Shown here piece by piece: positions 1 to 18,786 of a stretch of DNA of 64,000 nucleotides. This DNA is from Pseudodesulfovibrio profundus. Its GTDB lineage: Bacteria > Desulfobacterota > Desulfovibrionia > Desulfovibrionales > Desulfovibrionaceae. Position 1 is the first letter of the stretch, and every line of letters begins with the position of its first letter. Under the pieces are notes generated by a model. That model saw only the letters and a list, made by a program, of their open reading frames with translations, searched no databases and was not told where the DNA came from. Location of the stretch: the NCBI RefSeq assembly GCF_900217235.1, contig NZ_LT907975.1, forward strand, positions 3,323,001 through 3,387,000, written 5' to 3'. A program made the position numbers and the translations under genes.

Positions 1-1103
1 CCACGATCGTCACAGCAGATGAGTCGCCGCGCTCCTTCTTCATGGTCGAATTGGGCCAGCTCCTCTACCCAAATTGGATTCATGAGTCGTGTATGCTGTC
101 CGTCCGCTTCATTCAGGTACAATCCGGTTCGCTTGAGTTGAACACCATTGTGACTCTGGTATGGGGTATGTTGATGCACTGGAGATCTGGACAGGTACTG
201 CAGGGCCAAGGGCGAAGTGACGCCGCAGTCCTTTTTGCAGGGAAAATTGCCACCGTGTTCAGCTACGAAGGTCGCTACCTTATTGCATGGGATCGGTTCC
301 GGGTACTGCGCCTTGGCTTCTTTAAAACGCTGTCCGTTGAGTCCGCACAGGAGATGCCCACCACCGTGCATCTCAATAAGACGCAGGAAGTATGAGATAT
401 TTGCCCCGATGATTCGCCAGGCTATAGCCAGGTGCTCTTCGGTCACGGACTGTTGGTTGAGCAGTGCGGAAAAAACCTTGCAGCCCCGTATGTAGGCAGG
501 ATTGGTTCTGAGAAAATCTTTTCGGCCCGAGGCATCATCGTGTGCCATGAAGTATTCAGACGCCAGGAACGACAGAGGGATGGTCTGCTGATGCTGGAGA
601 TTTGAGAGCTTGGGCGCGGCCTCGCTCCAGAACACGGGTGTTTGGTTGACTAAAGTCGTCGGAAGCTGTTTGGCAAAGGTAAATCCTTGAATTTTATGAT
701 CGAAGTCGAGTCGGCTTGGGGAACCGATATCTCCCCTAAAGGTTGTCTCAGGGATGATGAGTTCGAATCCAAGTCTATGGAAATGGACCTGGATACTGTG
801 TAGGGGCACTTGGTAGTAAGTGAGGACTTCCTCAATCTCTGGGGGGAGAAAGGGACTGACGAGGGCCGTGAATGGCTGAATTGTGCCCGGACGGTTCTCG
901 TGTGGCCAATCGAAAAATAAGTGCAAGTCACCCCAAATGCGTTTTGGCCTGACGACCTCCTCTAGTGGGTGAGAGTATGAATGGACGCTGAAAGCTTCCG
1001 CGCCTTGCTTAATCATAGCCGACCGGTTGGCCGGGTTATCAATGAAACACTTATAGAAATTATTGGCGAAAAGTGCGTAGCGGTGTCGAGGCGTATTCGT
1101 CAT
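1..1103 (-). CDS. Degenerate AEP primase-like protein (partial, runs off left edge)
   Basis: The reading frame is open from an ATG at 1103 to base 1 (about 367 codons), so the C-terminus lies outside the window. By eye it aligns with the first third of the plus-strand primase at 1560. Shared features are the GDL strand before motif I, the Gly-Phe-x-(I/L)-I-x-Pro strand of motif II, and a C-terminal cysteine group (C273, C289, C293 here; C304-C317 there). The metal-binding Asp of motif I is Phe63 and the motif II His is Glu114, so primase activity is unlikely. The last 50 or so visible residues (GLYL...NPIWV...CCDD) resemble the start of a DUF927-type helicase module, which suggests a primase-helicase architecture. 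No strong ribosome site precedes the ATG, so the start is uncertain. The fold is inferred from the paralogue; the role is unknown. Confidence 0.6.
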   Translation of the reverse strand, partial: MTNTPRHRYALFANNFYKCFIDNPANRSAMIKQGAEAFSVHSYSHPLEEVVRPKRIWGDLHLFFDWPHENRPGTIQPFTALVSPFLPPEIEEVLTYYQVPLHSIQVHFHRLGFELIIPETTFRGDIGSPSRLDFDHKIQGFTFAKQLPTTLVNQTPVFWSEAAPKLSNLQHQQTIPLSFLASEYFMAHDDASGRKDFLRTNPAYIRGCKVFSALLNQQSVTEEHLAIAWRIIGANISYFLRLIEMHGGGHLLCGLNGQRFKEAKAQYPEPIPCNKVATFVAEHGGNFPCKKDCGVTSPLALQYLSRSPVHQHTPYQSHNGVQLKRTGLYLNEADGQHTRLMNPIWVEELAQFDHEEGARRLICCDDR

Positions 1104-1258
1104 CGGCGTGTCTGTTTGATTTCATGGAATGTCATCAAGGGTTAGCATGCCATGCTCGTCCTTTTCAGGCAATGAATCACAGCTCAAGAATCCGCTTCAA
1201 ATAATTTTTCACAACGAGGTGACATCTTGTGAGAACAAATGAACACAGGAGGTTACAC

Positions 1259-1477
1259 GTGGACAATCTCAAACAAGAACTAATGGAACATCTGCCCCCG
1301 ATATTCGCTGGCCGCGCCGTGGACTCCCTGACCGGAAACGCCGTCAGATGGCGGACGATCCAGAACCTTCGGAGTCAGAAGAAGATCCCCGAAGAATGCT
1401 TTATGCGGCAGGGATCGCGAAAGACCTTGCTGGTCAGGGCACCGTTTGTGGAATGGTTCCTTCAACATATCAACTAG
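1259..1477 (+). CDS. Small excisionase/HTH-like DNA-binding protein
   Basis: This 72-residue protein is read from a GTG with an AGGAGG nine bases upstream; an earlier GTG at 1229 lacks such a site. The pattern (a Leu-Pro-Pro-x-Phe start, a Trp-Arg-Thr-Ile-Gln helix, a basic Arg-Lys stretch, then a Trp-Phe-Leu tail) is that of short winged-helix/excisionase-like proteins encoded next to phage and island replication genes. It lies between the two divergent primase-like genes, 82 bases before the primase-ATPase and separated from it by a hairpin terminator. A role in controlling the element is an inference. Confidence 0.5.
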   Translation: MDNLKQELMEHLPPIFAGRAVDSLTGNAVRWRTIQNLRSQKKIPEECFMRQGSRKTLLVRAPFVEWFLQHIN

Positions 1478-1503
1478 TGTCCGCCTTGAATAAAAGGCGT
1501 TCG

Positions 1504-1535
1504 AAAGGCCGGAGAGCAACGCTCCCCGGCCTTTT
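1504..1535 (+). terminator. Hairpin terminator after the small DNA-binding gene
   Basis: A GC-rich stem (AAAGGCCGG paired with CCGGCCTTT) with a loop of about 14 bases ends in a TTTT run, 27 bases after the small gene and 25 before the primase start. It could also act as an attenuator for the primase gene. Confidence 0.6.
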
Positions 1536-1559
1536 CAATTTGCAACAGGAGAAGATGTA

Positions 1560-4025
1560 ATGGAATTGGTCTATTACTGGGCCCCCTTGAACGGCGATAA
1601 GCCGGGGCCCTGGGAAAAGATTATGGCCTCTCAGGATGTTTTCGAGCTTGCGCGACAAAAGGGTGCAGCTTTTCTGTCGACCATGGCTTTTGAATACGAA
1701 CCTGAGAAGGACAAGGAAGAGCCTCGTCGGTATGGCGACCTTGTCATTGACTTTGATTGCAAAGATGACCCTGAACAAGCGCGTAAAGATTGCGTCATAT
1801 TCGTGAACCATTTGTTCGGGTACATGGTGCGGCCTGGAGAACTGCGGTACTGGATAACCGGCTCTAAAGGGTTTCATATAATAGTCCCATCGTATTTGTT
1901 CGGTGGCATCGAAGGTGACCCCTTGCTCCCTCAAATCTATGCAAGGATGGTGCAGTTCCTTACCGTGCGCATATGGCATGGTCAGCCTAATTCGGTGGAC
2001 ACCAGCATGTACTGTATGGGGAAAGGAAAGCTCCTGCGAATGGAGAATGTCCAGCGGCCCAATGGCATGTACAAAGTGCCCATCACGTGGGAAGAACTGT
2101 CGACACAGAGTTACGATGATCTGATCGAGCTTGCCAGGCAGCCGCGCCATATAGAAGTCGCCCCGCCTTCGTTGCGGTTGCCTCAGCCTTTGGCAAGCAT
2201 GTACCATTGGCATAAAACGCTGGTTCACAGGCCTCCCACAAATTGCCTTTTAAGTCCTGCCGATTTTATCATGAAGTGCAAATTCATTCGGTATTGCTCG
2301 GAAAATGCTGAAACTCTGGAAGAACCTCTCTGGCATGCCATGCTGTCCGTCCTGAAAGGGCTTGGCGATTTCGGCCATTGGATGAGCCACGAGCTGAGTT
2401 TGAGACATCCCGAATATACCCCCGCAGAAACGGACAAGAAGATCGAAAAGGTCGTACCGAATATGAGTTGCGATAAAATCCGGCAACTCTACGATTGCAG
2501 GTGCGACTGTGGCGTGCCGTTCCCCAGCATGATTTGGGCGACAGGCAAGGGCGCAGAAGGCGTCAAGCAAACTGAAGTCGAGCGGGTGTCAAACCTGATC
2601 GAGCCATTCGATTTCTACCCGGCGGAAGACGGCATGACTGTCTATGCAGACATCCATGTAAACGAGCACCGGGAAACGTATCGAGTGGATAGCTTCGAGT
2701 TCAAGAACCTGATCGGCTATCGCTACTATCAGGAAACAGGCAAGCATCTGAAATCGGCTGCTGCGCAGGATTTGATTCACTTCATCACTGCACGTGGGCT
2801 GTTTGGTGGTGCTGAAAAGCAAAAAGTGTTCACACGCATCGCCCATCTTGATGACGCGGTGTACATCGACTTGTGCGATGACCAATGGCGTGCCGTGGAG
2901 ATCACTGCGGGTGGGTGGAGAATCGTGACCAGCCCGCCGGTTCGTTTTCGTCGTGTCAAAGGCATGCTGCCCCTTCCTGAGCCCATGGAGGGCGGCTCGG
3001 TCGCTGAAATACGGAAGCTCCTGAACATCGGGCAGGAAGATGCTCTCCTGGTCGAGGCGTGGTTGCTGGGCATACTGTCGCCTGGGCCGTATCCTGTGCT
3101 GATCCTGGAAGGCGAGCAGGGCTCGGCCAAGAGCAGTACAACTCGTCTGCTGCGGATGTTACTCGATCCGTCGGTTGCACCCACTCGGGCGGCACCCCGT
3201 AATGAGCAGGATTTGATCATCTCCGCAAACAACTCCTGGATCGTGACTCTGGACAACCTCTCTGGGGTGCCGGTTTGGCTATCGGATGCCCTGTGCCGCA
3301 TGGCTACAGGTGGCAGTTTCTCAGCCCGGAAGCTGTTCACCAACGATGAAGAGGCTCTGTTCACGATTATGCGTCCCATCGTCCTCAATGGGATTGATCA
3401 GGTCGCAGACCGTCATGATCTGGCTGATCGGAGTCTCCGAGTCACTCTGCCGGTGATAAAACCTGAAAACAGGCTGACGGAATCGGAGTTGTCGCTGGCA
3501 ATCGATGCAGCCGCTCCCAAAATACTAGGTGGTCTGTGTGATGGCGTCGTGTGCGCTCTGAAGAACAGACAGAGCATCCAGGTCGAAAACCCGCCAAGGA
3601 TGGCGGACTTCACCCACTGGTGCGTGGCGGCTGAAGAGGCCATGCACTGGGAGACGGGAGAGTTTCTGGAAGCCTATGGAAGCAATCAGGATGAGTCCAT
3701 TGAACGCGCTCTGGAATCAGATCATGTCGCCAACGCGATCATTACGCTGATGTCCGGCGTTTTTGATTGGGAAGGAACGCCTACCGAACTGCTTAAGGCT
3801 CTTGAAAACGTTGTGGATGAGCGCGTCACCAGACTGAAGCTATGGCCACAAGTGCCAGCTGCATTAGGCAAGCGACTGACACGCTGTAAGGGCTTCCTTC
3901 GAAGCTCTGGAATTAACGTCAATCAACAGAGAGGAGGAGAACGTCTCATCACCATAACCAATGAAAAGATCGCTCCTACTGCAAGCTCCAATGTGAGCAT
4001 CAGCAATGGAGTGTTCTTCGGATAA
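1560..4025 (+). CDS. AEP-type primase fused to P-loop ATPase/helicase
   Basis: The 821-residue protein starts at an ATG preceded by CAGGAG. The N-terminal domain carries archaeo-eukaryotic primase signatures: motif I with D64-x-D66 after a Gly-Asp-Leu strand, motif II Ser-Lys-Gly-Phe-His (H106), and a motif III-like region with D147 and R160. A cysteine group (C304, C313, C315, C317) ends the primase part and may bind zinc. The C-terminal half has a Walker A, GEQGSAKS at residues 518-525, followed by a Walker B-like TLDN strand and an Asn-Gly sensor segment, as in replicative helicases of phages and integrative elements. It probably primes and unwinds DNA for a mobile element or takes part in a defence system. 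No integrase is present in the window to decide between these. Confidence 0.75.
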   Translation: MELVYYWAPLNGDKPGPWEKIMASQDVFELARQKGAAFLSTMAFEYEPEKDKEEPRRYGDLVIDFDCKDDPEQARKDCVIFVNHLFGYMVRPGELRYWITGSKGFHIIVPSYLFGGIEGDPLLPQIYARMVQFLTVRIWHGQPNSVDTSMYCMGKGKLLRMENVQRPNGMYKVPITWEELSTQSYDDLIELARQPRHIEVAPPSLRLPQPLASMYHWHKTLVHRPPTNCLLSPADFIMKCKFIRYCSENAETLEEPLWHAMLSVLKGLGDFGHWMSHELSLRHPEYTPAETDKKIEKVVPNMSCDKIRQLYDCRCDCGVPFPSMIWATGKGAEGVKQTEVERVSNLIEPFDFYPAEDGMTVYADIHVNEHRETYRVDSFEFKNLIGYRYYQETGKHLKSAAAQDLIHFITARGLFGGAEKQKVFTRIAHLDDAVYIDLCDDQWRAVEITAGGWRIVTSPPVRFRRVKGMLPLPEPMEGGSVAEIRKLLNIGQEDALLVEAWLLGILSPGPYPVLILEGEQGSAKSSTTRLLRMLLDPSVAPTRAAPRNEQDLIISANNSWIVTLDNLSGVPVWLSDALCRMATGGSFSARKLFTNDEEALFTIMRPIVLNGIDQVADRHDLADRSLRVTLPVIKPENRLTESELSLAIDAAAPKILGGLCDGVVCALKNRQSIQVENPPRMADFTHWCVAAEEAMHWETGEFLEAYGSNQDESIERALESDHVANAIITLMSGVFDWEGTPTELLKALENVVDERVTRLKLWPQVPAALGKRLTRCKGFLRSSGINVNQQRGGERLITITNEKIAPTASSNVSISNGVFFG

Positions 4026-4317: not shown

Positions 4318-4980
4318 ATGAAACAAGATAAGAATATAGCACTCTTCATCGCTCAAAAGGTATTTGCCGAATTGGTATACGACGTACAAAGCCTTGAGGG
4401 GATGCCATTCACCATGCCCGAGGTTCAGACGTATCTCCAGGGTGTTACTGTCGGCGGGCACAAGGTTTCAGATGTTGAAAAGCTCAAACAGCAAAAGCTT
4501 GGCTGGGAACTCCTCATCGAGATGGTCAAGGAAGACACTTTCACCCTGACCAAAGAAACAGCCTGCGCAATCCAAAAGGTGATTGGCCATGGCGAAGCCC
4601 TAGACCCTGGAATGTTCCGAACAGCCCAGGTTGGCATTGCCGGAACCGAGTATAAGCCGCCCCGAGCCGACGAACTCGATAAACTTTTCAAAAGCGTGAT
4701 CAGCGACCTCTTGAAGCTTAAGGACGTGCGCGAGCAGGCTTATCGCCTGCATCTCGACTTTGCCCGAAGTCAGTTCTTCTGGGACGGCAACAAGCGTACC
4801 GGCCTGCTTATGCTCAATGGGCACCTGATGAGCAATGGCTATTGTCCGCTCTCTATCCCCGCCAAGCGGCTGACCGAATACAATGCCGGTATGATTCGCT
4901 TCTACGAAAGCGGTGAATATAATGAAATGATGGCGTTCCTGAAGGAGTGCCATGAAGCGATGTACGGGCGGTTCGAGTAG
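4318..4980 (+). CDS. Fic-fold protein with catalytic His replaced by Gln
   Basis: The 220-residue protein has the Fic layout. An N-terminal helix with a Ser-Leu-Glu-Gly segment resembles the usual inhibitory motif. A Pro-Glu-Val-Gln-Thr-x-Leu block and a Val-Gly-Gly-His stretch follow. The active-site loop reads S-Q-F-F-W-D-G-N-K-R-T-G around residues 151-162. Where Fic AMP-transferases have His-Pro-Phe-x-x-Gly-Asn, this has Q152-F153-F154, so the base needed for AMP transfer is missing although the phosphate-binding GNKR is kept. The inhibitory motif also lacks its first Ser/Thr. It may be an inactive or repurposed Fic. The next gene starts eight bases after its stop, so the two are probably one operon. 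Confidence 0.75.
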   Translation: MKQDKNIALFIAQKVFAELVYDVQSLEGMPFTMPEVQTYLQGVTVGGHKVSDVEKLKQQKLGWELLIEMVKEDTFTLTKETACAIQKVIGHGEALDPGMFRTAQVGIAGTEYKPPRADELDKLFKSVISDLLKLKDVREQAYRLHLDFARSQFFWDGNKRTGLLMLNGHLMSNGYCPLSIPAKRLTEYNAGMIRFYESGEYNEMMAFLKECHEAMYGRFE

Positions 4981-4988
4981 GAGGAGTC

Positions 4989-5597
4989 ATGCTTGAGGAT
5001 GTTGAAGTAAACATTCCCGAATACTTCCGGTTCATGGCCGAATACGCCGGGCCAATGGCGCTGAAACTTTCCCAACGGCTCCACGGTAAACCCGATTGTT
5101 TTGACTACGACGAACATGCTGCCATTGACTGTCCCGCATTCATCAATGAAAAGCTGGCCGACATGCAGGAATACGTCCCGGATGTCGTCGAAGCGATTAA
5201 TTCCCTGGGCAGGAGTGTTTCCGAGTACGAGATTCTGAACGCCTTCGAAGATATCGACCGGGCTTGCGATCCGATCCTCACGAGCATGGACGAGGTCAAA
5301 TGCGCCTTGTTCGAGGATGTGGAAGAGGCCAAGCCCCTCCTGCTCAACGTCATGGGGCGTGTCATTCAGGATGTCGCTCTCATGCTCCAGCAGTTGCACC
5401 AAGCAGTCCTCACTCCGGAGCACTGCATCGAAGATTACGAAGACAGTCTCGTGATGGATCTCACTGTTGAATTTCGCATTGATGAAGAAATGGCCGCACT
5501 CGAAGCCTGGGCCAATAGGCAAAACCGGACATCAGGCGGCGGCTGGGGAGGCCTGCTGGGCGCTTTCGGTCTGGGGTGGTGGATGGCTTCAGATTAA
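4989..5597 (+). CDS. Hypothetical acidic protein, partner of the Fic-like gene
   Basis: I do not recognise this 202-residue protein. It is strongly acidic and predicted mostly helical, and ends in a tail rich in glycine and tryptophan (about residues 183-202). A GAGGAG site stands just before its ATG, and it follows the Fic-like gene by eight bases, which suggests co-expression. An antitoxin or target role is possible but rests only on position. Its 3' end overlaps the convergent DUF6933 gene by four bases. Confidence 0.55.
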   Translation: MLEDVEVNIPEYFRFMAEYAGPMALKLSQRLHGKPDCFDYDEHAAIDCPAFINEKLADMQEYVPDVVEAINSLGRSVSEYEILNAFEDIDRACDPILTSMDEVKCALFEDVEEAKPLLLNVMGRVIQDVALMLQQLHQAVLTPEHCIEDYEDSLVMDLTVEFRIDEEMAALEAWANRQNRTSGGGWGGLLGAFGLGWWMASD

Positions 5598-6118
5598 CCG
5601 GCCCGATCAATCATTTTCAGCATTTCCCTGCCTGGAAACACGACACCCTTCAAATCCTTTCCTTGGCATGGCGTCTCATTGAGAAAAGTGACTAACCAAC
5701 GATATTCTTCTTCAGTTTCGGGCAGCCGTCCGAATCTAGCTTTCAGGATATAGTCGATCCCCACTTTCAGATCATTCAGCGTCCCGAGCACGCTGCGATT
5801 GTGCGTCTTGTGATACGAAAATCCACCGAGCAGCAGCTTGGCCTGGGCGATTTGCGCCGGGTTGGCGTTCATGTAGCCCAAGGTCCGCTCGCAGTGGTGG
5901 ATGAATACTTTCTGGAAGTTGGCAAAATCCTTTTTCACCATGCCGGGGATGAACAAAGTGAAGCGCGTTTCATCGTTGACCAGCAACACGCACTTTCGCC
6001 GGAACAGATGAATGAGGTTGCCATGCCAGCCGAGGAAACCACGCACGTCAGGAGCATCGGCCAACGGCTCGGAGGTCAGCTCCTTGGCGAGCTTTTGAGT
6101 GCAGCAGATGTAGGGCAT
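5594..6118 (-). CDS. DUF6933 family protein, last gene of the type I RM operon
   Basis: The 174-residue protein opens with the Tyr-Ile-x-Cys-Thr-x-Lys-Leu-x-Lys-Glu-Leu block that I associate with the DUF6933 family, whose function is not established. It starts ten bases after the hsdR stop with GAGG upstream, so it is probably translated with the restriction genes. A Trp-His segment and a Phe-x-Pro-Gly-Met motif are visible. There are no membrane segments. A link to restriction is inferred from position only. Confidence 0.6.
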   Translation of the reverse strand: MPYICCTQKLAKELTSEPLADAPDVRGFLGWHGNLIHLFRRKCVLLVNDETRFTLFIPGMVKKDFANFQKVFIHHCERTLGYMNANPAQIAQAKLLLGGFSYHKTHNRSVLGTLNDLKVGIDYILKARFGRLPETEEEYRWLVTFLNETPCQGKDLKGVVFPGREMLKMIDRAG

Positions 6119-6127
6119 ACCCGTCCT

Positions 6128-9100
6128 CTAAGCCGCCTCACTCCAGTCATCCGCCAAACTCTCGGCCTGACGCAGTACTTCAGCCACCGCTTCCTTCTGG
6201 GCGTCCGGCGGATACTTGTATTTCTTCAGGATCCGGCGAACCAGATTTCGCATCTTGGCCCGGACTGAATCCTTATGCTGCCAGTCGACGGTCACATTCT
6301 TCCGCAGCTTTTCGGTCAACTCCTTGGCGATCTTCTTGAGGATGTCATCGCCCAGTTCTCGCACGGCGGATTCGTTTTCTTCCAAGGCGTCATAGAAAGC
6401 CAACTCGCTTTGGTTGAGTCCGAGCTTGTCGCCACGCTTGAGGGCTTCGTTGAAGTCCTTGGCCATCTGGATCAGCTCTTCGATTACCTGGGCGGTCTCA
6501 ATGGCTCGATTGCGGTATTTGAGCAGAGACTCCTGCAGGCGCTCAGAGAACTTCCGCTCCTGCGTCGTATTACGGCGAGAACGGGCGCTGATTTCATCCC
6601 TGAGCAACTTTTCCAGCAATTCGACAGCGAGGTTGCGGTGCTCCATGTTGCGGACGTCGTCGAGGAATTCTTCAGACAAAATGGAAATGTCCGGTTTGTC
6701 GAGTCCCGCCAACGCGAAAACATCATCCACGCCTTCAGGGACAACAGCGCGGGCGAGAAGCTGGTTCAGGACGGCGTCCTTTTCCTGCCGTGTCTGCTTG
6801 CCCTTGGTGGCGGTTGTCTTGGCGATGAAAATCTTAACGGCCTGGAAGAAGGTGATCTCATCACGGAGAGCCATGGCTTCGTCCAGAGTTCCGCAGAGGG
6901 ATTGGGCGCGAGTCATAGCTACCACGACGTCGAAGAACTCCTTCTTGCGCTCCTCGGTCTCGACAACAAAGTCGGCAGCAGACGGCAGGAGCTCGACAGC
7001 CTTGCTTTTGTAGGCGGAGTAATCAAACTTGTGGAAGATATCGCGTGCGGTCTGGAGCTTCTCCTTGAGCACGTAAAACGCCTCATACACATCAACCGTG
7101 GGCTGACCGCCACGGCCACTGCTTTGGGTGTATGTGTGGAGTGCGTTCTTCAATTCGCTGGCAATGCCAATGTAATCGACGACCAGACCGCCTTGCTTGC
7201 CCTTGAACACGCGGTTCACGCGAGCGATGGCCTGCATGAGGTTGTGCCCCTTCATGGGCTTGTCGACGTACATGGTGTGGGCGCACGGTGCGTCGAAGCC
7301 GGTCAGCCACATGTCGCGGACAATGACTATCTTCAGTGGATCGTCGAGGTCCTTGAAACGCTTCTCCAAGGCCTTTTTCTGCGACTTGCTGTAATGGTGG
7401 GCCTGTAGCTCCTGCCGGTCAGACGCACTGGCGGTCATGATGATACGGATAGCCCCATCAGATGGATCGTAGGTATCGTTTGCCAATCGTCCCCCTGCCC
7501 AGTGCGGACGCAATTTCACGAGCGCATCGAACATCTGCACGCAGATATCACGGCTCATGCAGACAATCATGGCCTTGCCGTCCACGACCTCCAGGCGGGC
7601 TTCGAAGTGATCAACCAAGTCCTCGGCTACTTGTCGGATACGCGGTTCAGCCCCAACAAGCTTGGCCAGGGCAGCCCACTTGCCCTTGGTTTTTTCGGCT
7701 TGAGATGTCTCCTCATCCTCCGTTACTTCGTCTACTTTTTCGTCGATTTGCGGCAACTCATCCTCGTTGAGGTTGAGCTTGGCTAAGCGGCTTTCGTAGA
7801 AGATCGGGACGGTCGCGCCATCAAGTTGGGCCTGCTCGATGTCGTATACGCTGACATAGTCGCCAAACACTGCTTGGGTGTTCTTGTCCTCTTCGGATAT
7901 GGGCGTGCCGGTGAAGCCGGTGAACGTGGCATTTGGCAGAGCATCACGCATGTGCTGGGCATACCCGGCAACGAACGCATTACGCTTTTCGTCAAGCTTG
8001 GCCCTGAAGCCGTATTGGGAACGGTGACACTCGTCGGCAATGACGATGATGTTTCGACGGTCGGACAGGACCGGGAACGTGGTCTCATCCTTATCCAGGG
8101 AAAATTTCTGAATGGTGGTGAAGACAATGCCGCCGGACTGCTTCTCGTTGAGGATCTGACGAAGCGCTCCTCGATCATCCGCCTGTATCGGACTGTCGGC
8201 CAGCAGATCTCCTGCCTTGCAGAACGTTTCGTAGAGTTGTCCGTCCAGATCGTTTCGGTCCGTAATGACAACGAGGGTCGGGTTGGCCAGTTCGGGATGG
8301 CGGATGAGCTTTCCGGCGAGGCAGCACATGGAGATGGATTTACCGGAACCCTGAGTATGCCAGATGACGCCGCCGCGTCCTTTCAGCTCGTTCGGTGCGT
8401 GCTCGGAAGCCGCTTTCACGGCTGCGGCCACGGCTTGACGCACACCATGGAACTGGTGGTAGCTGGCGATCTTCTTGATGGTGCTGGAGTCGTCCGCCTC
8501 GAACAGAACGAAATCGCGGATGTATTCCAGGAGCAGCGTCCTGTCGAAGAAGCCTTTCACAATGCCCTTGAGTTCATACTCGAAGGACGGGCGGTCTTCT
8601 TCCGACTTCACGGTTCGCCACGGCAAGAACCACTCTCGGTTGGCGGTCAGCGACCCCACCCGAGCCTGAATGCCATCAGAGGCCACCAAAGCCTCGTTGA
8701 ACACGGCAAGATCAACCAATTCCTGCTTATAGGTCTGGAGTTGATGAAACGCCTCGTCCACGCCCACGTCCTCTTTGATAGGGGATTTCAACTCAATGAC
8801 GGCCAGCGGCAGACCGTTGATGTAGATGATCAGGTCGGGACGGCGATTGCCCTTGCTCCCCCGGATGGTGAGCTGATCCACAGCCCAGAATGTGTTGGCG
8901 TTCATATCGTTAAAATCGATGAGAAATGCCTTGTCTTCGACGTTCTCCCCATCCCGCTTGTAACTGACGTCCACGCCCTCACGGAGCAACCGGTGAAACT
9001 CCTGATTCGCCTTGACCGTGACCGGATGGGAAAGCTTTTGGAGCTGGTGGAGAACATCATCAACGGTGCCCGCCGGAAGTTGCGGATTAATACGCTCAAT

Positions 9101-9259
9101 GGCCGATCGAAGTGGTTCCACCAGAAGCACGTCATCCAACCGCGCTCGCGACCCGCTTCCGTCCAACTCCGGATTCAAGTCCGGTCCGTGAACATGTTCA
9201 TAACCTTCTTCTTCAAACCAACTGATGGCGAGTTTTTCGAGAGCGTCTTCGTTAATCAT
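6128..9259 (-). CDS. hsdR: Type I restriction endonuclease, R (motor/nuclease) subunit
   Basis: The 1043-residue protein carries the HsdR nuclease motif near the N-terminus (Pro-Asp-Leu-Ile...Ile-Glu-Leu-Lys), a Walker A in the His-Thr-Gln-Gly-Ser-Gly-Lys-Ser segment around residue 300, a DECH box (Ile-Ala-Asp-Glu-Cys-His) and later SF2 motifs including the Asp-x-Trp-Leu-Thr-Gly-Phe-Asp-Ala-Pro block. It would translocate and cut DNA once bound to M and S subunits. The frame is intact and of normal length. The start lies 26 bases after the hsdS stop. Because hsdS is interrupted, the complex probably cannot form with the original specificity. Confidence 0.95.
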
Positions 9260-9285
9260 GGGGGAGCTACCGTGGATGTCAGAGG

Positions 9286-10382
9286 TTACAAGACGGATTC
9301 CAGTTGTTTTTCGACTTCAGCGACTGAGAGTTCGCCGGATATGAGCTTGGGGAGGAGGGCATCCCGAGATTGAACCAAGGCTATATTCTGCTTCTTCTGC
9401 GCACTTGTTTGAGCAAAGAAGGATGACACTATTTGGTGAAAGGCCTCACCTACAGATTTGTCTGGAATGACAACAGCCGTTTCAGCTACAATATTTGGCT
9501 TTACCGCAGGATATGCTGCACCATCAGCAAGATGGGCTAATCTCTCAATTGATTCATCACAAGTAGCTGCAATGTAAACAAGTTCTCGCCAAAGCTTTTC
9601 TTGTGGAGTCAACACGGCAAATCCAGTGCTTCCTGTTAGCCGCGTATCTCCTGGTCCAATATAAGCGTATGAACGATTTCCAGGCCTCACAGTCCCAACA
9701 ATCGTGTCACCTTCAAATAGGGCTCTCCGTGCTCGTGAGGGTGCTTCCTCAAAATCATACTCGACGACCTGCTCGATAACACCATTCTTGGTATTTGCTA
9801 AATCTACGTATTGAACAGTCTCAGGATGCCTTTTTTTTGTCCATGACTTCGCATTAAGTTTGGCAAGGTCACCAAGACTACCAACCTTCCACCCCTCAGG
9901 GATCAGGCCAAGTTCGGACTCCACCAGCTTGTCGGGGAAGAGGGCCGCTGTTGCCGCATCCATGCCTTCGGGCTGCCTGCCTTCCATCTTCGACTTGACC
10001 GGGTCGAAGTCCACGAACCAACTCTTGAACAGCGCCTGCGCCATGGCCTCCAGCGTCTCATTCATGCGCCGGTTCAGTTCGATCTTGTCGTCCAGCGTGC
10101 CGAGGATGTGGGCTATGGCTTTCTGGGTTTTGAGAGGAGGGAGAATTATAGGTAAGCCATGCTGATTCGTAATGCTTAAGTAAGCACGAGTTGAACCACC
10201 ACCTGCCCAGCTTCCAAGAGTAGATTGGAAATCTGCCGAATCGAAGTAGTACTTGAGAAATTTGTTCGACAGCTTAGACTGATCTTTAACCCGATAGTAA
10301 GTCACTTGAGGGGTTAGCACGATTAAGGGGTGTTCATGTTTGGGAACAATAGCAGTTCTCCCAATCGTAGCCTTATGTGTTA
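9286..10382 (-). pseudogene. hsdS: hsdS 3' part (downstream of the IS1595 insertion)
   Basis: This is the larger remnant of the type I specificity subunit. It holds the end of the first target-recognition domain, the central conserved region (Leu-Asp-Asp-Lys-Ile-Glu-Leu-Asn, then Lys-Ser-Trp-Phe-Val-Asp-Phe-Asp-Pro), the second recognition domain and the C-terminal repeat. Joining base 10382 to the upstream part at 11100 gives an uninterrupted frame reading Leu-Leu-Thr-His-Lys-Ala-Thr-Ile-Gly across the junction. An internal GTG at 10320 could start a shortened protein with one intact recognition domain; half-size S proteins that dimerise are known in type I systems. Confidence 0.9.
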
Positions 10383-11091
10383 GGGGCTGTACCAGATAAC
10401 TAGCCCATATGTCTTCTAACCCACTGTTTCAGTTGTTTAAACTGGCTTCGCGGATTGCTGTTATTAAAACGCCACTCGCATTCCTTTAAAAACAGAGAAA
10501 AATGCTTGGTTGGAATGCCGTTGAATTTCCTCATATGGCGTTTGGCCTGGTTCCAAAAATTCTCGATTCCATTGATGTGGTTGTGGCTATCTGCAAACAG
10601 CTTCGAGTGGTTGATTCGGAAGTGTTTGAACGCTGACACATCAAGGACATTGTAGCCATACCAGCAGTCCGAGTAAACCACACTGTCTGGCTGGATTCTT
10701 TCCTGAATAATGGGAAGCAAGGTTTTACCTTTCGCATCAGGAATCACCTGTGTATAGACCTTCCCGCCCCTTTTAAGGATTCCAAAAACAGGAACCTTAC
10801 CAGCCGCCCCACGTCCTCTTTTGCCCTTTCGCTTGCCACCGAAGTAGCTCTCATCGACCTCAAATTCGCCAAAATCCATCCCTTCACAGGACTCTTCTAC
10901 CGCTATGATTTCCCGGAGCCGGTGAAAGTAATAGGCGGCTGTTTTGACGTTCACACCAACCAGATCGGCAGCGCAACGAGCTGTCGTGCCAGCCACAAAA
11001 TGTTCGATTAAACGAAGCTGCTTGTCCTTGCTCAAACGACTTTTTCGCATTGCCATACCGATAACCCAAAGGAGTTATCTGGTACAGCCCC
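10383..11091 (-). mobile_element. IS1595-family insertion sequence, copy 1 (in hsdS)
   Basis: The 709-bp element is bounded by inverted repeats beginning GGGGCTGTACCAGATAACT and flanked by an 8-bp target duplication ATGTGTTA at 10375-10382 and 11092-11099. It carries one transposase gene in the same direction as hsdS. The encoded protein is identical to that of the copy at 58526-59234, which indicates recent transposition. Confidence 0.97.
10400..11056 (-). CDS. IS1595-family transposase (copy 1)
   Basis: The 218-residue transposase lacks the long N-terminal zinc-ribbon region seen in larger IS1595 members, matching the short IS1016-like branch. It has an N-terminal helix-turn-helix, then DDE-type catalytic segments: Glu-Val-Asp-Glu-Ser-Tyr-Phe-Gly-Gly-Lys, Val-Tyr-Ser-Asp-Cys-Trp, and His-Ile-Asn/Gly-Ile-Glu-Asn-Phe-Trp. 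The frame is intact, so the element is probably active. Confidence 0.93.
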   Translation of the reverse strand: MAMRKSRLSKDKQLRLIEHFVAGTTARCAADLVGVNVKTAAYYFHRLREIIAVEESCEGMDFGEFEVDESYFGGKRKGKRGRGAAGKVPVFGILKRGGKVYTQVIPDAKGKTLLPIIQERIQPDSVVYSDCWYGYNVLDVSAFKHFRINHSKLFADSHNHINGIENFWNQAKRHMRKFNGIPTKHFSLFLKECEWRFNNSNPRSQFKQLKQWVRRHMG

Positions 11092-11382
11092 ATGTGTTAA
11101 AAGTACATCTCCTTCTTCAGCAAATCCTTTTCGCAGCTGATTTGCTTGGCTTTGTTTTATGTATTTGCAGGTTCGAAAGGAAAGGGTCCCATTGTTTATG
11201 TCTGAAGCTGCAACGAATGGTACGCCACTAGAAACGAAATCATCACCCTTAGGATGAATTCCTCCATGGTTTCCATCCATTGGTTTCTCAATAATATCTA
11301 ATTTAATTAGATCACTAATTGTATATTGCTGAACGTTGTCAACACTTCCTTTTTTCAAAATTTGTTGCTCTCTACTTCCCAT
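11092..11382 (-). pseudogene. hsdS: hsdS 5' part (upstream of the IS1595 insertion)
   Basis: About 97 codons of the N-terminal target-recognition domain remain before the insertion; the frame then runs into the element and stops after a short foreign tail at 11032. The ATG at 11382 (or GTG at 11385) overlaps the end of rhuM by about a dozen bases, so translation was coupled. The fragment is less than one recognition domain and should not bind DNA alone. Confidence 0.88.
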
Positions 11383-12421
11383 CACGTCCCACCTTCCGTT
11401 CCTGCTCCAAAGCCCTGGCAGATGTTCTCAAGTCCTCAATGTAGGTCTTGTCGGCCTCTTGCTGTTCTTCAAGACGTCGCTTCTCGGCGAACTTGTCGTA
11501 TTCCGCTTTGGCATGAGCCACAGCAGCTTCGCGGCTGACGCTTCCTGCGCCCTCAAGCACAGGGAGATCCACATCGCTCAAGAACTTGTCGAGAAAACCC
11601 TTCCAGTCTTCCATAAGGATATTCTGTCGCCGCTGAGCGCGAAACTCGGCCTGATCCAGGAACATCACGGTGATACGATTGAGTGTATCGATTTCCTTTT
11701 CGTCGAGGTAGTTTTTGGCCGTCTCGACATCCCTTTTCAGCACCCGTGACCCTTTGTAGTTCGTCAGCCCCATGTCGCGCAATTCTGCGTTGGCGCGGGT
11801 TTTGACGATCTCGCCTGCAGTCAGTTTTGTTGCGGCGTAGTGCATCTTGTTTTGCATGGTCGCAAAGAAATTGTGGGTTGCCTTCTCGCCCTCGCGATAG
11901 TCGGCTGCCAGTGAAAAGATATTGCGGATCATCAGATAGACACGAGCTTCACTCGCTCGAATCTCACGGATACGCGCCAGTAACTCTTCAAAGTAGTCAG
12001 CCCCGCTGGATTCGCCCTTGAGGCGTTCATCATCCAGAGTAAACCCTTTGACGAGGTATTCGTTCAAACGGTCCGTTGCCCACCTGCGGAACTGGCTACC
12101 CAGCTTGGAGCGAACCCGGAAACCGACGGCAATGATCATGTCCAAATTGTAGTGGTCAATCAGGCGCTTGACCTGCCGAGTTCCCTCAGTTTGAACTATT
12201 AAGTATTTCTTAATAGTTGCCTCGGGCAACAGCTCTTCATCTTCGTAAATGGAAGAAATGTGTTGATTTATGTTGGAAACAGAGGTCCCGTAAAGATCTG
12301 CCAACTGTTTTTGAGTCAGCCATACGGATTCACCTTCAAGCCTCACCTGAAGCGGTTTATCCAGGCCTTTTCCCTGGTAGACAAGGAGTTCGCCCTGTGG
12401 GCGTTCGTTGTTATTCGGCAT
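11372..12421 (-). CDS. rhuM: RhuM-family protein inside the RM operon
   Basis: The roughly 350-residue protein matches the RhuM family: a Trp-Leu-Thr-Gln-Lys-Gln-Leu-Ala-Asp-Leu-Tyr segment near the start, a Thr-Ile-Lys-Lys-Tyr block, and Arg-Ser-x-x-Gly-x-x-Phe-Arg-Arg-Trp-Ala. The C-terminus is a charged predicted coiled coil. RhuM proteins are found in pathogenicity islands and often beside type I RM genes; their biochemical role is unclear. I chose the ATG at 12421 because the upstream alternative at 12445 is a TTG. It overlaps the membrane-protein gene upstream and hsdS downstream, so the genes are tightly coupled. Confidence 0.85.
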   Translation of the reverse strand: MPNNNERPQGELLVYQGKGLDKPLQVRLEGESVWLTQKQLADLYGTSVSNINQHISSIYEDEELLPEATIKKYLIVQTEGTRQVKRLIDHYNLDMIIAVGFRVRSKLGSQFRRWATDRLNEYLVKGFTLDDERLKGESSGADYFEELLARIREIRASEARVYLMIRNIFSLAADYREGEKATHNFFATMQNKMHYAATKLTAGEIVKTRANAELRDMGLTNYKGSRVLKRDVETAKNYLDEKEIDTLNRITVMFLDQAEFRAQRRQNILMEDWKGFLDKFLSDVDLPVLEGAGSVSREAAVAHAKAEYDKFAEKRRLEEQQEADKTYIEDLRTSARALEQERKVGRDGK

Positions 12422-13139
12422 CGCTGGCCTCAACTGAAGGGGCAACTCTGTTGATCATCGTAAGCTCATTTTTTTTTGTTTTAAAATTGGTTCTCAACTT
12501 TACTGCTAGCAACCACCCGAATATTATTGAAAAAGCAGCAATTAAAAAGATACCAAGACAACCCAACCAAAACAAATCAGCTTCATTGTTATTGGGGTTA
12601 GAGATCGTAGGGGCTATACATAAACAAACTCCACCAATTACTATCCACATTGCAATAATAAGGCTGTTTATTGCCTCGTTAACTTTACTAACAGAGTAGA
12701 AAACATCATTGTTTTTGTTATGAAGAACTGTTTTGTAAAGATTTCCAGAAATACATTCTTCGAGCATATCAATGTGTGATTCCCAATTTTCTTGCCATTG
12801 CTTTGATCCTTTTAAAGCTACCCGCCATAAAAGTGTGAAAAAGCATGCAAAAATACTAACTAAAAAAAGAAAATAGAACTGCCCAGTAGTCCCGTTTCCT
12901 TTCGCTAACAATGTGCCAAACGCCAGCATAAATGCGGCTTCAAACCCCCAGAAATACAAAGCTCGCTTCCAGTAAAGTTCTATCTCAAACTGTCGGACTT
13001 CGTGTGCCTTGTCGTACGCTTCTTGGAGTCGGGATTTTGTTCCAGCTTCAAGGCATTCATTGTGCTCATTGATTACTGACGCTTTAGGCGCGTTGAACAT
13101 ATGGTTCCAGTATTTATATGTCAGCGGTTCCTTTGACAT
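12411..13139 (-). CDS. Four-helix membrane protein, RipA-like
   Basis: The 242-residue protein has four clear hydrophobic segments, two in the first half after a Tyr-Trp-Lys-Arg-Ala-Leu-Tyr-Phe-Trp-Gly entry motif and two in the second half, with a soluble loop between them. That motif and layout resemble the RipA family of octameric membrane proteins; I rate this as probable, not certain. It starts right after the hsdM stop, with GGGAG upstream, and overlaps rhuM. Its AT-richness compared with hsdM suggests it was added to the operon separately. A membrane-linked accessory role in defence is speculation. Confidence 0.6.
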   Translation of the reverse strand: MSKEPLTYKYWNHMFNAPKASVINEHNECLEAGTKSRLQEAYDKAHEVRQFEIELYWKRALYFWGFEAAFMLAFGTLLAKGNGTTGQFYFLFLVSIFACFFTLLWRVALKGSKQWQENWESHIDMLEECISGNLYKTVLHNKNNDVFYSVSKVNEAINSLIIAMWIVIGGVCLCIAPTISNPNNNEADLFWLGCLGIFLIAAFSIIFGWLLAVKLRTNFKTKKNELTMINRVAPSVEASDAE

Positions 13140-13141
13140 AG

Positions 13142-14797
13142 CTACTGTCTCCCAAATCCCAACTTCTTTAGATTTTCCCGAATCACGCTATCCAACCGCC
13201 GTCCCTCTTCCAGCTGCTCGAACAGTGTCGAGGTCAAAGCCGCCATCTTTTCTCCAAAGGGGATGCCATCGTCCTCTTCCTCGCGAGCGCCAACGTATCG
13301 GCCCGGAGTCAGCACATAGTCGTGCTTGCGGATATCCTTCAATTCGACCGAAGCACAGAATCCGGCCTCGTCCTCATACGGCGTCTCGGCCTTATCGCCC
13401 ATCTGCCAGTTCAGCAGGGTCTGCGCGATCCGCAGGATGTCCTTTTCGCGGTCAAAGTCTCGCAAAACGCGGTCGATCATGTAACCGCAATTCCGGGCGT
13501 CGATGAACAGCACCTCGCCGGAACGGTCCCGTAACGTCTCGATATTCTGTCCGTTGGATTTGTCCTTGTTCAGGAACCAGATGCAAGCCGGGATCTGCGT
13601 GTTGGTAAAAAGCTGTCCAGGCAGGGCCACGATGCATTCCACGAGGTCCGCATCAACGATCTTCTGACGAATGTCCGCCTCACCATTGGTAGCGGTGGAC
13701 ATGGAACCATTGGCGAGCAGCAGAGCCATTTTGCCCTTGGGCCCAAGGTGGTGGACCATGTGCTGCATCCACGCGAAGTTGGCGTTGCCATCCGGCGGCA
13801 GGCCGTACTTCCAGCGCACGTCGTCAGCCAGCTTGTTCGCACCCCATCCGCTGATATTAAACGGCGGGTTGGCCATGATGTAGTCAAAGCGCTTGTCCGA
13901 GTGCTGGTCATTGCCAAAGGTGTCGGCAGGCTCCTTACCGAAGTCGAACTCAATGCCACGGATAGCCATGTTCATTGCCGCCAACTTCCACGTAGTCGGG
14001 TTGGACTCCTGCCCGTAAATGGACAAGTTGCCGACCTTTCCACCATGGGCCTCGACAAATTCCTCGCTGGAAACGAAGAAGCCACCGGAGCCGCAAGCCG
14101 GGTCATACACACGCCCTTTGTACGGGCGAAGCATTTCAACGATCAGCGTAACAATCGATTTGGGCGTGTAATACTGACCGCCTTTCTTGCCCTCGGCTAC
14201 CGCGAACTGCCCTAGGAAGTATTCATAGACATGGCCCAGGATATCCTTGGCTTTCAAACTTTCATGCTCAAACGGAATGGTGTTGATCAGGTCCATGACC
14301 TCGGCCAGCTTGGAGCTTTCCACCTGAAGCCGCGCAAAGTCCTTGGTCAGCACATTCTTGAGGACCGGGTTCTCCTTCTCGATGGCGTCCATGGCATCAT
14401 CAAGCAGGTTGCCCACGCTCTTGAATTCTGCCCCCCAAGGTAACCTGGAACCGGGGTTAAGCTTCACGCATTCGAGCAGGGTGGACCAACGCCCTTTCTC
14501 CGGCACCCAAAACACGTTGGCTTCGGTGTAGTAGTCGCGCTCCTCAAGCTCGTCAGCAAGAAGCTCTTCGTCTTCCAGGTCGTCATCAAGATAGTACTCA
14601 TGGTCGGGGTCAGCGAACTGAGCCTTCAGCTCGTCCTGCCGCTGCACAAAACTGTCGCCCACATATTTCAGGAAGACCAACCCGAGCACGACGTGTTTAT
14701 ACACCGCCGCATCGAGCGAAGGCAGGAGCTTACAAGCGGCAGCCCACAGCCGCTTCTCCATTTTCTTGAGAAACGCATATTGTTCCAACGCTGTCAT
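13142..14797 (-). CDS. hsdM: Type I restriction-modification DNA methyltransferase, M subunit
   Basis: The protein (551 residues from the chosen start) shows the N-terminal HsdM helical domain, the SAM-binding motif Asp-Pro-Ala-Cys-Gly-Ser-Gly-Gly-Phe, and the catalytic Asn-Pro-Pro-Phe of N6-adenine methyltransferases. The ATG at 14797 has an AAGGAAAACGAA site; an upstream in-frame ATG at 14839 has none and falls inside the 73-bp repeat. It heads the operon hsdM, RipA-like, rhuM, hsdS, hsdR, DUF6933. Without an intact S subunit it should lack sequence-specific methylation. Confidence 0.95.
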   Translation of the reverse strand: MTALEQYAFLKKMEKRLWAAACKLLPSLDAAVYKHVVLGLVFLKYVGDSFVQRQDELKAQFADPDHEYYLDDDLEDEELLADELEERDYYTEANVFWVPEKGRWSTLLECVKLNPGSRLPWGAEFKSVGNLLDDAMDAIEKENPVLKNVLTKDFARLQVESSKLAEVMDLINTIPFEHESLKAKDILGHVYEYFLGQFAVAEGKKGGQYYTPKSIVTLIVEMLRPYKGRVYDPACGSGGFFVSSEEFVEAHGGKVGNLSIYGQESNPTTWKLAAMNMAIRGIEFDFGKEPADTFGNDQHSDKRFDYIMANPPFNISGWGANKLADDVRWKYGLPPDGNANFAWMQHMVHHLGPKGKMALLLANGSMSTATNGEADIRQKIVDADLVECIVALPGQLFTNTQIPACIWFLNKDKSNGQNIETLRDRSGEVLFIDARNCGYMIDRVLRDFDREKDILRIAQTLLNWQMGDKAETPYEDEAGFCASVELKDIRKHDYVLTPGRYVGAREEEDDGIPFGEKMAALTSTLFEQLEEGRRLDSVIRENLKKLGFGRQ

Positions 14798-15317
14798 TTC
14801 GTTTTCCTTTTCAGATTCAGTAAGATTGGCAAAAGTCATAATACACGGGCACGGAAATGTGAAACACGAATTATGCTTATAGAAAAAATGACATCTGAAA
14901 TATGATGAAAAGGCCTGTTTGCTTCAAGCTCTTTACAAGCGAAACACCTCAGCCACGATCAGCGGCTGAGGTGTTGTACTATCTAGAGTTGCAGAACCAG
15001 CTCCTAAGCGTTGTAGGCTAATATAAACCCAGAGGATTATATGGGAGCAGATTAAGTCTGACAAACAGAATAGTCATGCAGATCCTTTGATTGCTTGTAT
15101 TTCTATCTACGATAGTGATTACCCCAGAGAGGGCGGCACCTCAAGCGATCAACGCAAATAAATATAATTCTCAAGAGAATGTTATTGAGGGGTAAAAAGC
15201 TGCGGCAGTACAAGGTGTTGCGCATGGTAGTTAGCATGATAGGGTCTGTTAAAGCTTGCAGCCATTTCCACCGCTTTTCAAAAATAGGTGGACGTTTTTG
15301 ATTCACGTAAAGAGGAA
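14798..15317. other. 520-bp gap with hsdM promoter region and hairpin
   Basis: This holds the hsdM leader and the first 73-bp repeat (14812-14884). A perfect 12-bp stem follows at 14944-14976 (AACACCTCAGCC / GGCTGAGGTGTT); it could end transcription of the minus-strand 307-codon gene, although its T-run is short. Between 15000 and 15317 I see only short unconvincing frames, the longest 67 codons on the minus strand from a GTG at 15306. A small RNA cannot be excluded. Confidence 0.5.
14812..14884. repeat. 73-bp direct repeat, copy 1 (upstream of hsdM)
   Basis: This matches 16331-16403 with only a few substitutions. It begins CAGATTCAGTA and ends TTATGCTTATAGAA. It covers the region directly upstream of the hsdM ribosome site, so it probably contains that operon's promoter. 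Confidence 0.9.
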
Positions 15318-17441: not shown

Positions 17442-18709
17442 GAGACCTCTGCGCATCCCCTTTTCGCGTCCGTGCCTTGCGCTCCGCACCCAATTTGATG
17501 TTCTGACCGCACCCCAGCTTGGGCTCATTCCCGGCCTTTTCCTGCCATTTCTGGCCGAAATGCCGGATTTTGGACGCACCTCTCCCTTCAGGCTCGCGCC
17601 AGTCGAACAGCTTTTTTCAAATTGAACGCCATGGCGAGGATGTGGAACTCTCCCTCCACCTTCTCACGACCCACGTATCGGGACCGAAAGAATGCGTAGC
17701 CACGTTTGAGTGTGCCGAAGGCCCGCTCGACTATTTGCCGAATGCTGCTGATGTCACGGTTGCGGGTCTTTTCGAAGTCTGTCAGCCTGCCGCCACGAGG
17801 CGTCTTGTCCATGGTTCCGTCCTCCAAATCGCGATCAAACAGAATGTCCCGGTTCTTCCCGCTGCAATAGCCCTTGTCCGCATAAACCCGTGCGCCGGGA
17901 TCAAGGCCGACGCCATTCACGAGCCGCTCGAATTCGCCCGTGTCCGAATGGTTCGCGGGAGTGATGTGACCACAGAGCAGAAACCCGTCTCGACTGTCCG
18001 TCGCGGCATGGAGCTTGTAGCCGTAATAGGCCCGATTTCTCTTGCGGAGCCAGGCCGCCTCCTCGTCATCCGAATAGCTGACCCGGCAGTCCACCGGCCC
18101 ATCCTGTTCTTCGGCGTCCTCGGAACGGTCCTCAGGCATCACGTCGATAACCTTGCGCGGCCGCCGCTGCGACTCGACTACCGAGGCGTCCACCACGGCT
18201 CCCTCACGGACAAGAAGCCCTTGTCCTTCAAGCTGGCGGTTAAGCATGTCGAGCAAGGAGTCCAGCACCTTCAGGCGGATCAAACCGTTACGGAAACGGC
18301 ATATGGTGGTCTCGTCCGGCACGTCGTCCTCGATGGAAAAACCGGTAAATCTGACAAAGGAGAGCCGGTCGAGCAGCGCCTGCTCCACGCCCGGATCACT
18401 CAGGTTGTACCAACGCTGCAAGAGCAGAATCTTGAACATCGCCAGAGGCGGATAGGCGGGATTGCCCACGGCGTTGGCCTTGCGCCTGATCTTCTTGCAC
18501 AGAAAGGCGTTGATGGGCTGCCAGTCGATGAGTTCGTTGATCTCATCCAGAAATGTGGTCTTGGTTCTGCGGTGCCCCAGGAAGTAATCACCCAACCGAG
18601 GTCCTTTCTGCCGAATAGCCATGCCTTCCTCCTTTGGATGGAGAAATAATAGCATAATAAATCAAATAGTTAAAGAGTAAAAGTGTGGGATTTGCCGTGC
18701 AGAGGTCTC
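17442..18709 (-). mobile_element. IS5-family insertion sequence truncating the RT
   Basis: The 1268-bp element is bounded by inverted repeats starting GAGACCTCTGC at both ends (about 12 of 13 matching). Flanks are AAA on the left and AAT on the right, so no clear target duplication is present. That fits an adjacent deletion after insertion, which would explain why the rest of the RT gene is missing on the far side. Confidence 0.85.
17588..18622 (-). CDS. IS5-family transposase
   Basis: The 344-residue transposase starts at an ATG with AGGAGGAA directly upstream; a longer reading to 18655 lacks such a site. It has the IS5-type N-terminal DUF772-like region and the DDE segments Val-Val-Asp-Ala-Ser, Ala-Asp-Lys-Gly-Tyr and Ile-Val-Glu-Arg-x-Phe-Gly. 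An acidic insert lies after the first Asp. The frame is intact. It separates the accessory region from conserved genes to the right. Confidence 0.93.
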   Translation of the reverse strand: MAIRQKGPRLGDYFLGHRRTKTTFLDEINELIDWQPINAFLCKKIRRKANAVGNPAYPPLAMFKILLLQRWYNLSDPGVEQALLDRLSFVRFTGFSIEDDVPDETTICRFRNGLIRLKVLDSLLDMLNRQLEGQGLLVREGAVVDASVVESQRRPRKVIDVMPEDRSEDAEEQDGPVDCRVSYSDDEEAAWLRKRNRAYYGYKLHAATDSRDGFLLCGHITPANHSDTGEFERLVNGVGLDPGARVYADKGYCSGKNRDILFDRDLEDGTMDKTPRGGRLTDFEKTRNRDISSIRQIVERAFGTLKRGYAFFRSRYVGREKVEGEFHILAMAFNLKKAVRLARA

Positions 18710-18786
18710 AATAGGGTAACATTCGATCCAGGTGTGCGCACACAAGGAACTTGGCTAAACCAGAATGGTCTGTCTTGCCCATAAAA

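Follow-up and report, generated by a model that had tools for sequence, protein, structure and literature searches.

A doubly inactivated relative of AEP-DUF927 replicases and its possible role as an exchangeable accessory protein in integrative elements of Desulfovibrionaceae

What does a primase-like protein do beside a live primase once its own active sites are gone? This question arises at the left edge of a 64,000-nucleotide stretch of the Pseudodesulfovibrio profundus genome (assembly GCF_900217235.1, contig NZ_LT907975.1, positions 3,323,001 to 3,387,000), hereafter the window (G000:C1:3323001-3387000, where G000 is the window genome; other genomes are given by similar handles). On the plus strand, a gene at 1560 to 4025 encodes an 821-aa live primase-helicase with intact motifs: it keeps the motifs of the archaeo-eukaryotic primase (AEP) superfamily and has a cysteine cluster and an ATPase part with GEQGSAKS and LDN motifs. 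Facing away from it, a minus-strand frame is open from 1103 past base 1, and a small helix-turn-helix (HTH)-type gene (1229 to 1477, plus strand; conserved part beginning near 1262) lies between the two. An earlier note on this DNA had seen here a live and a dead primase with an HTH gene between them, had proposed extending the contig to the left, and had suggested a two-subunit replication or defense machine. We completed the minus-strand frame using the flanking genome and obtained an intact open reading frame (ORF) of 828 aa (G000:C1:3321617-3324103, minus strand). Residues 1 to 367 of this protein are encoded in the window (1 to 1103) and the remainder to its left (G000:C1:3321617-3323000), and a tyrosine integrase gene (421 aa) lies 116 bp further left. 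The description of the pair held, with the motifs kept in the plus-strand protein and lost in the minus-strand one, which we call the dead protein or dead partner.

Profile-profile comparison bore out the note's alignment of the two proteins from motif I through the cysteine group. The dead protein matched the plus-strand primase family at 84% (E = 7.5e-6) over columns 32 to 457, which span the AEP and cysteine parts, and a repeat local run over these parts gave 75% (2.4e-5). Single pieces matched the plus-strand protein weakly (AEP part, 10%; cysteine part, 25%; C-terminal half, 0.1%), and these piecewise scores indicate that the two proteins have the AEP and cysteine parts in common but not the ATPase. 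The dead protein is nearer to full-length live AEP-DUF927 replicases, its closest match, than to the plus-strand protein. Compared with seven such replicases, it matched at 99.7% (E = 4e-27) over nearly its whole length, and its first ∼200 residues matched live AEP-DUF927 proteins at 96.8% (E = 2.5e-10), as expected for homology to the AEP superfamily. As controls, five unrelated element families reached at most 0.6% against the whole dead protein, and 20 column-shuffled AEP parts did not exceed 1.2% when compared with the live AEP-DUF927 proteins or 1.6% with the plus-strand family. The note had also suspected that the minus-strand protein runs into a DUF927-like module, and Pfam assigned residues 339 to 563 to DUF927 (PF06048) with 22.9 bits, against a cutoff of 22.6. 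A cysteine cluster, a “CGVtsP” segment, and a C-terminal “RGY” region are common to the dead copies and their live relatives. By these comparisons of sequence, the minus-strand protein is a full-length relative of the fused AEP-DUF927 replicases. Searched by sequence against solved structures, the dead protein returned only five lysozyme chains (E of 0.76 or worse), and the plus-strand protein matched none. A search of the G000 genome with the Prim-Pol model PF09250 gave no match, and thus the live AEP escapes recognition by that model.

The motif I DxD and the motif II His are the active-site motifs of AEPs. In our alignment, the first motif I Asp and the motif II His are gone from all 10 full-length dead copies, none of which has the DxD and His of an active primase. 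The window copy has Phe63 in place of the first motif I Asp and Glu114 in place of the motif II His, exactly as the note had read them. Of the 10 copies, 2 (G000 and G131) retain the second motif I Asp (Asp65), as does a piece of the frameshifted copy from G194. At the ATPase site, every full-length copy has Arg for the Walker A Lys and lacks both the Walker A Ser/Thr and the Walker B Asp; 8 of the 10 retain the Walker B Glu. The combination of GK[ST] and an acidic pair that marks an active DUF927 ATPase was found in none of the 10 partners, and the pieces of the G194 copy show the same residue changes. Among 37 other aligned DUF927 proteins, some of them near-copies, all had GK[ST], 35 had DE, and 2 had DD (L103 and L108, which were counted as DUF927 by Pfam scan). 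These 37 comprised nine live relatives and those of 39 proteins added to the alignment that were left after six plus-type primases, four proteins without a DUF927 match, and the G194 piece were set aside. Seven DUF927-core matches stood outside this motif count (G325, G273:C152, G237, G324:C1:483407, G021:C27, G323, and G314). Both AEP motifs were kept in 10 of the 37 proteins. Two AEP-DUF927 proteins, of G161 and G136 (L096 8516-11287 and L105 7276-10113), were half dead, with the AEP residues lost and the ATPase motifs kept, and the N-termini of the remainder do not align as AEP in this alignment. Judged from its residues, the dead protein has lost both the primase and the ATPase site, while its cysteine cluster, ATPase core, and C-terminal RGY-type segment are preserved.

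Of 288 Desulfovibrionaceae genomes, 11 carry the dead protein, and G333 has a fragment of it at a contig end. Ten copies are full length, with intact frames of 827 to 870 aa in the 10 genomes other than G194, where a frameshift splits the gene. Of 395 genomes sampled across the phylum, four matched, G000 in full and three by short matches to the DUF927 core (two of them outside Desulfovibrionaceae), and this sample held no long match outside that family. The dead protein was not found in viral contigs, plasmids, or phages, nor was the plus-strand protein found in viral contigs. A pattern scan of genome contigs for the dead protein gave no match, and an alignment-based scan gave one contig of a Desulfovibrionaceae metagenome-assembled genome (MAG). 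The ratio of nonsynonymous to synonymous substitution rates (dN/dS) of the dead gene was 0.16 to 0.27 in four close comparisons (G000, G131, and the G194 pieces) and 0.09 to 0.19 in four subregions of the G000-G131 comparison. The ratios for the primase were lower (0.081 and 0.065, in two comparisons with unsaturated synonymous sites), and that for the integrase was 0.019 (one comparison). In a tree of 27 proteins, the 10 dead copies lay on one side of a branch with support of 100/99, a value obtained without counting ungrouped rows, and many residues were invariant among seven dead copies. By its sequence record, the dead protein is thus a kept family and not a case of plain decay, with its close copies under purifying selection. 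As a separate observation, G213 (L163 5437-8121) encodes a very divergent DUF927-like protein that has no Walker A motif and adjoins an HTH gene. It matched live proteins at 93% over residues 213 to 549, the fork that places it in the tree is weak (52/73), and we left it out of the eleven.

Comparison between elements showed that the dead gene and the replicase have separate histories. For instance, the DNA of the HTH gene and primase is 91.6% identical between G131 and G184, and that of 158 bases beyond the partner 88%, whereas the partner genes in between gave no DNA match; the partner proteins are 16% identical, compared with 91% for the primases. Between G000 and G177, DNA matched over the integrase and over the HTH-primase segment but not over the partner, and protein identity was 86% for the integrase, 80% for the primase, and 32% for the partner. 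The pattern is reversed between G000 and G131, in which the partners are 69% and the primases 60% identical. Because the flanks are homologous while the partner is replaced, we conclude that the dead gene travels as one unit, with another dead gene taking its place. On this evidence from alignments, it is a cassette, and its exchange is independent of the replicase.

Three kinds of replication gene adjoin the dead gene. In six genomes (G000, G131, G194, G177, G152, and G184) it is of the plus type, in G160 it is a live AEP-DUF927 gene, and in G126, G155, and G114 it is of the YagK/YfjJ type, which we take to be a rolling-circle-type Rep. Proteins of this last type matched YagK_YfjJ_C over the cutoff in three of three cases and the replication-associated model REP_ORF2-G2P over the cutoff in one of three. 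RNase H genes lie near the YagK/YfjJ-type gene in G155 and G114, and the G213 element also has a gene of this type. The primase family was matched in none of the four genomes G126, G155, G114, and G179, an empty answer that is weak if taken alone; the same primase query matched 43 of 247 genomes, these four not included. The HTH gene lies 87 to 449 bp from the dead gene in all 10 full-length loci whose contig shows that side (the G179 contig starts at the dead gene, and the HTH genes of G126 and G114 were found by tblastn). The two genes are divergent in 8 of the 10 loci and on the same strand in G160 and G184, where the dead partner shares the strand of both the HTH gene and the replicase. 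The small HTH-type gene of the window, which is presumably AlpA/Xis-like, had no Pfam match. The dead protein is the only DUF927 match in 10 of the 11 genomes that carry it; G160 has two further DUF927 proteins, both keeping GK[ST] and DE, and a DUF927 search of G333 gave no match.

The divergent arrangement of dead gene and related primase, which the earlier note had suggested looking for elsewhere, recurs in four other genomes (G194, G131, G177, and G152). Thus, the divergent live and dead pair with an HTH gene between stands, but the dedicated two-subunit machine that the note built upon it is not supported. The partner is replaced within homologous flanks in both G131/G184 and G000/G177, the dead gene and HTH gene accompany a Rep-like gene in three elements, the primase family went unmatched in four genomes, and two loci have the partner on the same strand. 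PADLOC defense models matched neither the dead nor the live protein (0 families at E up to 0.01).

A protein that has been kept and swapped in this way probably has a noncatalytic job. Our tentative reading, in which we place somewhat less than even confidence, is that the dead protein is an exchangeable, noncatalytic accessory or regulatory protein derived from an AEP-DUF927 replicase and carried by integrative elements of Desulfovibrionaceae. Its likely DNA-binding parts, the HTH neighbor, and the three kinds of replication gene together favor an accessory factor over a subunit of one primase. If so, the live plus-strand protein would be the one that primes and unwinds, whereas the dead protein would no longer do either; it would bind DNA near the control region through its cysteine cluster and a presumed C-terminal winged helix. 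Together with the HTH protein, it might govern or scaffold the start of replication or excision, whichever replicase is present.

Several points weigh against this reading. The exchange of cassettes would be explained equally well by a role in specificity or interference as by one in regulation. The dead gene is dispensable in many elements, which have the same type of HTH gene but lack a dead partner, and the frameshift in G194 may mean that the gene can be lost. The partner fragment of G333 comes after the primase, on the same strand, rather than after the HTH gene. The single dead branch of the tree could partly reflect long-branch attraction, and two more distant dead pairs had pN/pS values of 0.51 and 0.64, although their synonymous sites are saturated and these pairs are therefore uninformative on selection. 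In addition, two AlphaFold runs from two-row alignments gave models too poor for a fold search (mean pLDDT, the predicted local distance difference test score, 33.3 and 37.5).

The dead protein could instead be an interference or incompatibility determinant that blocks competing elements or phages using a live AEP-DUF927 replicase, possibly by entering mixed rings or by occupying the rival origin. Its exchange, dead gene for dead gene at a fixed place with homologous flanks, resembles the exchange of specificity alleles, and the elements carry defense-type cargo (type I restriction-modification, Fic, and RhuM genes in G000; type III-A CRISPR genes in G126). Moreover, since the dead copy is the only DUF927 match in nearly all of its genomes, the element's own replicase could be immune. 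PADLOC gave no match, however, the dead partner of G160 coexists with two DUF927 proteins whose ATPase motifs are intact, live AEP-DUF927 elements were found mainly in other genera than the dead ones, and in the tree a long distance separates the dead branch from the live one; we consider such a role unlikely, though worth keeping in view. We are doubtful, too, that the doubly dead family is an exchangeable specificity factor, traded like immunity or restriction-specificity genes and blocking or outcompeting rival elements, to which the element's own replicase would be immune through having another kind of ATPase or a Rep-like initiator.

It seems rather improbable that the dead protein binds the element's replicase as a structural subunit needed for its activity, by analogy with herpes UL8. 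The shared divergent region and the recurrence of the pair in G000, G131, G194, G177, and G152 would agree with this, and a catalytically dead replication subunit has a precedent (PMC8187027, in the portion available to us). Such a subunit should always occur and evolve with its replicase, whereas the dead gene is present in the four genomes without a primase-family match and the partners diverge where the primases do not (16% against 91% identity in G131/G184; 32% against 80% in G000/G177). Less probable still is that the protein is no pseudoenzyme at all and that its unusual residues, such as the Arg in place of the Walker Lys, still let it bind nucleotides weakly or have some other activity. 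The Arg is invariant and the Walker B Glu is mostly kept (8 of 10), yet the Walker A Ser/Thr, the Walker B Asp, and the first Asp and the His of the AEP site are lost from all 10 copies. We give very little credence to a relic, that is, a former replicase displaced by the plus-strand one and now decaying: the lost catalytic residues, the split gene of G194, and a dN/dS above that of the neighbors fit decay, but 10 other genomes have intact frames, close pairs have a dN/dS well below 1, and the same sites were lost along an old branch, yet many residues are invariant among seven copies.

Relatives of the proposed accessory protein are familiar from other systems. AEP-DUF927 replicases occur on mobile elements, in PrimQH- and All3500-type organizations (Kazlauskas et al. 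2018, PMC5862659, in the sections accessible to us). They resemble the dead protein in their order of AEP, cysteine or PriCT-like part, DUF927 ATPase, and C-terminal segment, and in belonging to integrated elements; the dead protein differs in lacking both catalytic sites and in adjoining another replication gene, and those sections describe no naturally inactivated member. DUF927 helicases are also found in SCCmec and SaPI, the SCCmec genes being Cch (DUF927) and CCPol-MP-Cch2 (PMC7581432, in excerpt). These, too, are mobile-element replication genes that join a DUF927-type helicase with a primase. The excerpt describes them as active enzymes, however, and their primase is an unrelated polymerase, whereas in the pair described here it is the DUF927 protein that is dead, and the live primase has a different ATPase of its own. 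UL8 is an inactivated B-family polymerase and a subunit of the herpes helicase-primase (PMC8187027, same portion), and like the dead protein it is a replication protein that has been retained next to a live helicase-primase although it is catalytically dead itself. Its fold is unrelated and it is an obligate subunit, whereas the dead partner passes between elements and also occurs without the primase. Twinkle-type helicases with a primase-like domain, according to similarly partial sources, have likewise lost the priming site within a primase-helicase. Their primase-like domain is of the TOPRIM type and their helicase is live, whereas both halves are dead here, and the AEP-DUF927 proteins of G161 and G136 are only half dead. 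A further paper mentions inactive polymerase parts in mobile elements that may be vestigial (PMC10061031, in excerpt). Thus, AEP-DUF927 replicases, DUF927 helicases, and dead replication subunits are known, but the literature searched, as available in part, held no description of a replicase-like lineage that is dead at both sites and exchanged between elements. If our reading is true, this lineage would be a bacterial counterpart of inactivated polymerase subunits like UL8, but not bound to one replicase, and a testable case of replication enzymes turning into regulators or weapons of mobile DNA. It would also mark a group of integrative elements with defense-type cargo.

A hairpin was found between the HTH gene and the replicase in all eight loci folded, and among seven of the eight sequences (G152 was left out), 7 of 19 consensus pairs had two-sided changes. 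In the window, folding and the consensus pairs place a terminator-like hairpin at 1503 to 1536 on the plus strand; the interval from 1476 to 1562 holds two stems, one of them terminator-like. The terminator-like hairpin, the second stem, and the two-sided changes in sequence suggest that expression of the replicase is controlled by read-through of the hairpin.

The genes of the element are in the order integrase, dead partner, HTH gene, replicase, and cargo. As in elements that integrate at tRNA genes, a tyrosine integrase gene lies beside an attachment (att) repeat, here 25 bp that correspond to the 3′ end of tRNA-Ala(CGC). In G194 (21.6 kb) and G177 (37.6 kb), a single contig has the repeat at one end of the element and an intact tRNA-Ala(CGC) at the other. 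Both are present but apart in G000, G131, and G126 (on different contigs in G131 and G126), and G160 and G184 have the intact tRNA only. No match to the repeat and tRNA pattern was found in G152, G155, G114, and G179, so that some members may have a different site. Direct repeats around the integrase revealed no att site in the stretch of G000 examined; the site was found through its tRNA-like tail together with a pattern search of the genome. The tail is at 3320066, and the intact tRNA is at 1286899 in the opposite orientation, with a trio of MoxR-type, DUF3150, and CobT-type genes that also adjoins the tRNA in G194 and G177. Identical, inverted 1270-bp insertion sequences lie at window positions 17442 to 18711 and at G000:C1:1305777-1307046. 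From this arrangement we infer that an inversion of ∼2 Mb cut the G000 element in two, away from its tRNA-Ala end, and the insertion sequence in the window would be the likely end of this half.

The cargo in the window begins with a Fic/Doc-family gene (4318 to 4980, plus strand; Pfam PF02661, PADLOC PDC-S04/SoFic), which is also present in G194. It continues on the minus strand with a DUF6933 gene (5594 to 6118; PADLOC candidate PDC-S63) and with type I restriction-modification genes accompanied by RhuM, 8xMP, and IS1595-type transposase genes (6128 to 14839). The type I specificity gene (9286 to 11385) is apparently interrupted by the IS1595-type transposase gene (10400 to 11056). The cargo of the G194 element includes a prismane-family protein and an ODP-flavodoxin protein (L124 2611-6765). 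In G126 (L176 9066-16944), type III-A CRISPR genes (Cas6, Cas10/Csm1, and Csm2) come after an integrase and att tail of the same type.

Elements with a live AEP-DUF927 replicase also carry a protein of 754 to 894 aa, possibly another paired replication protein. Its gene comes after the integrase in L089, L090, and L092 and adjoins the replicase in L091, L094, and L175, and the four proteins scanned (L089, L091, L094, and L175) are AAA_25 by Pfam. Finally, in G033 (L053 8453-10768), the ATPase half of the plus-strand protein is found on a different N-terminus, which is zinc-finger-like by eye and not AEP.

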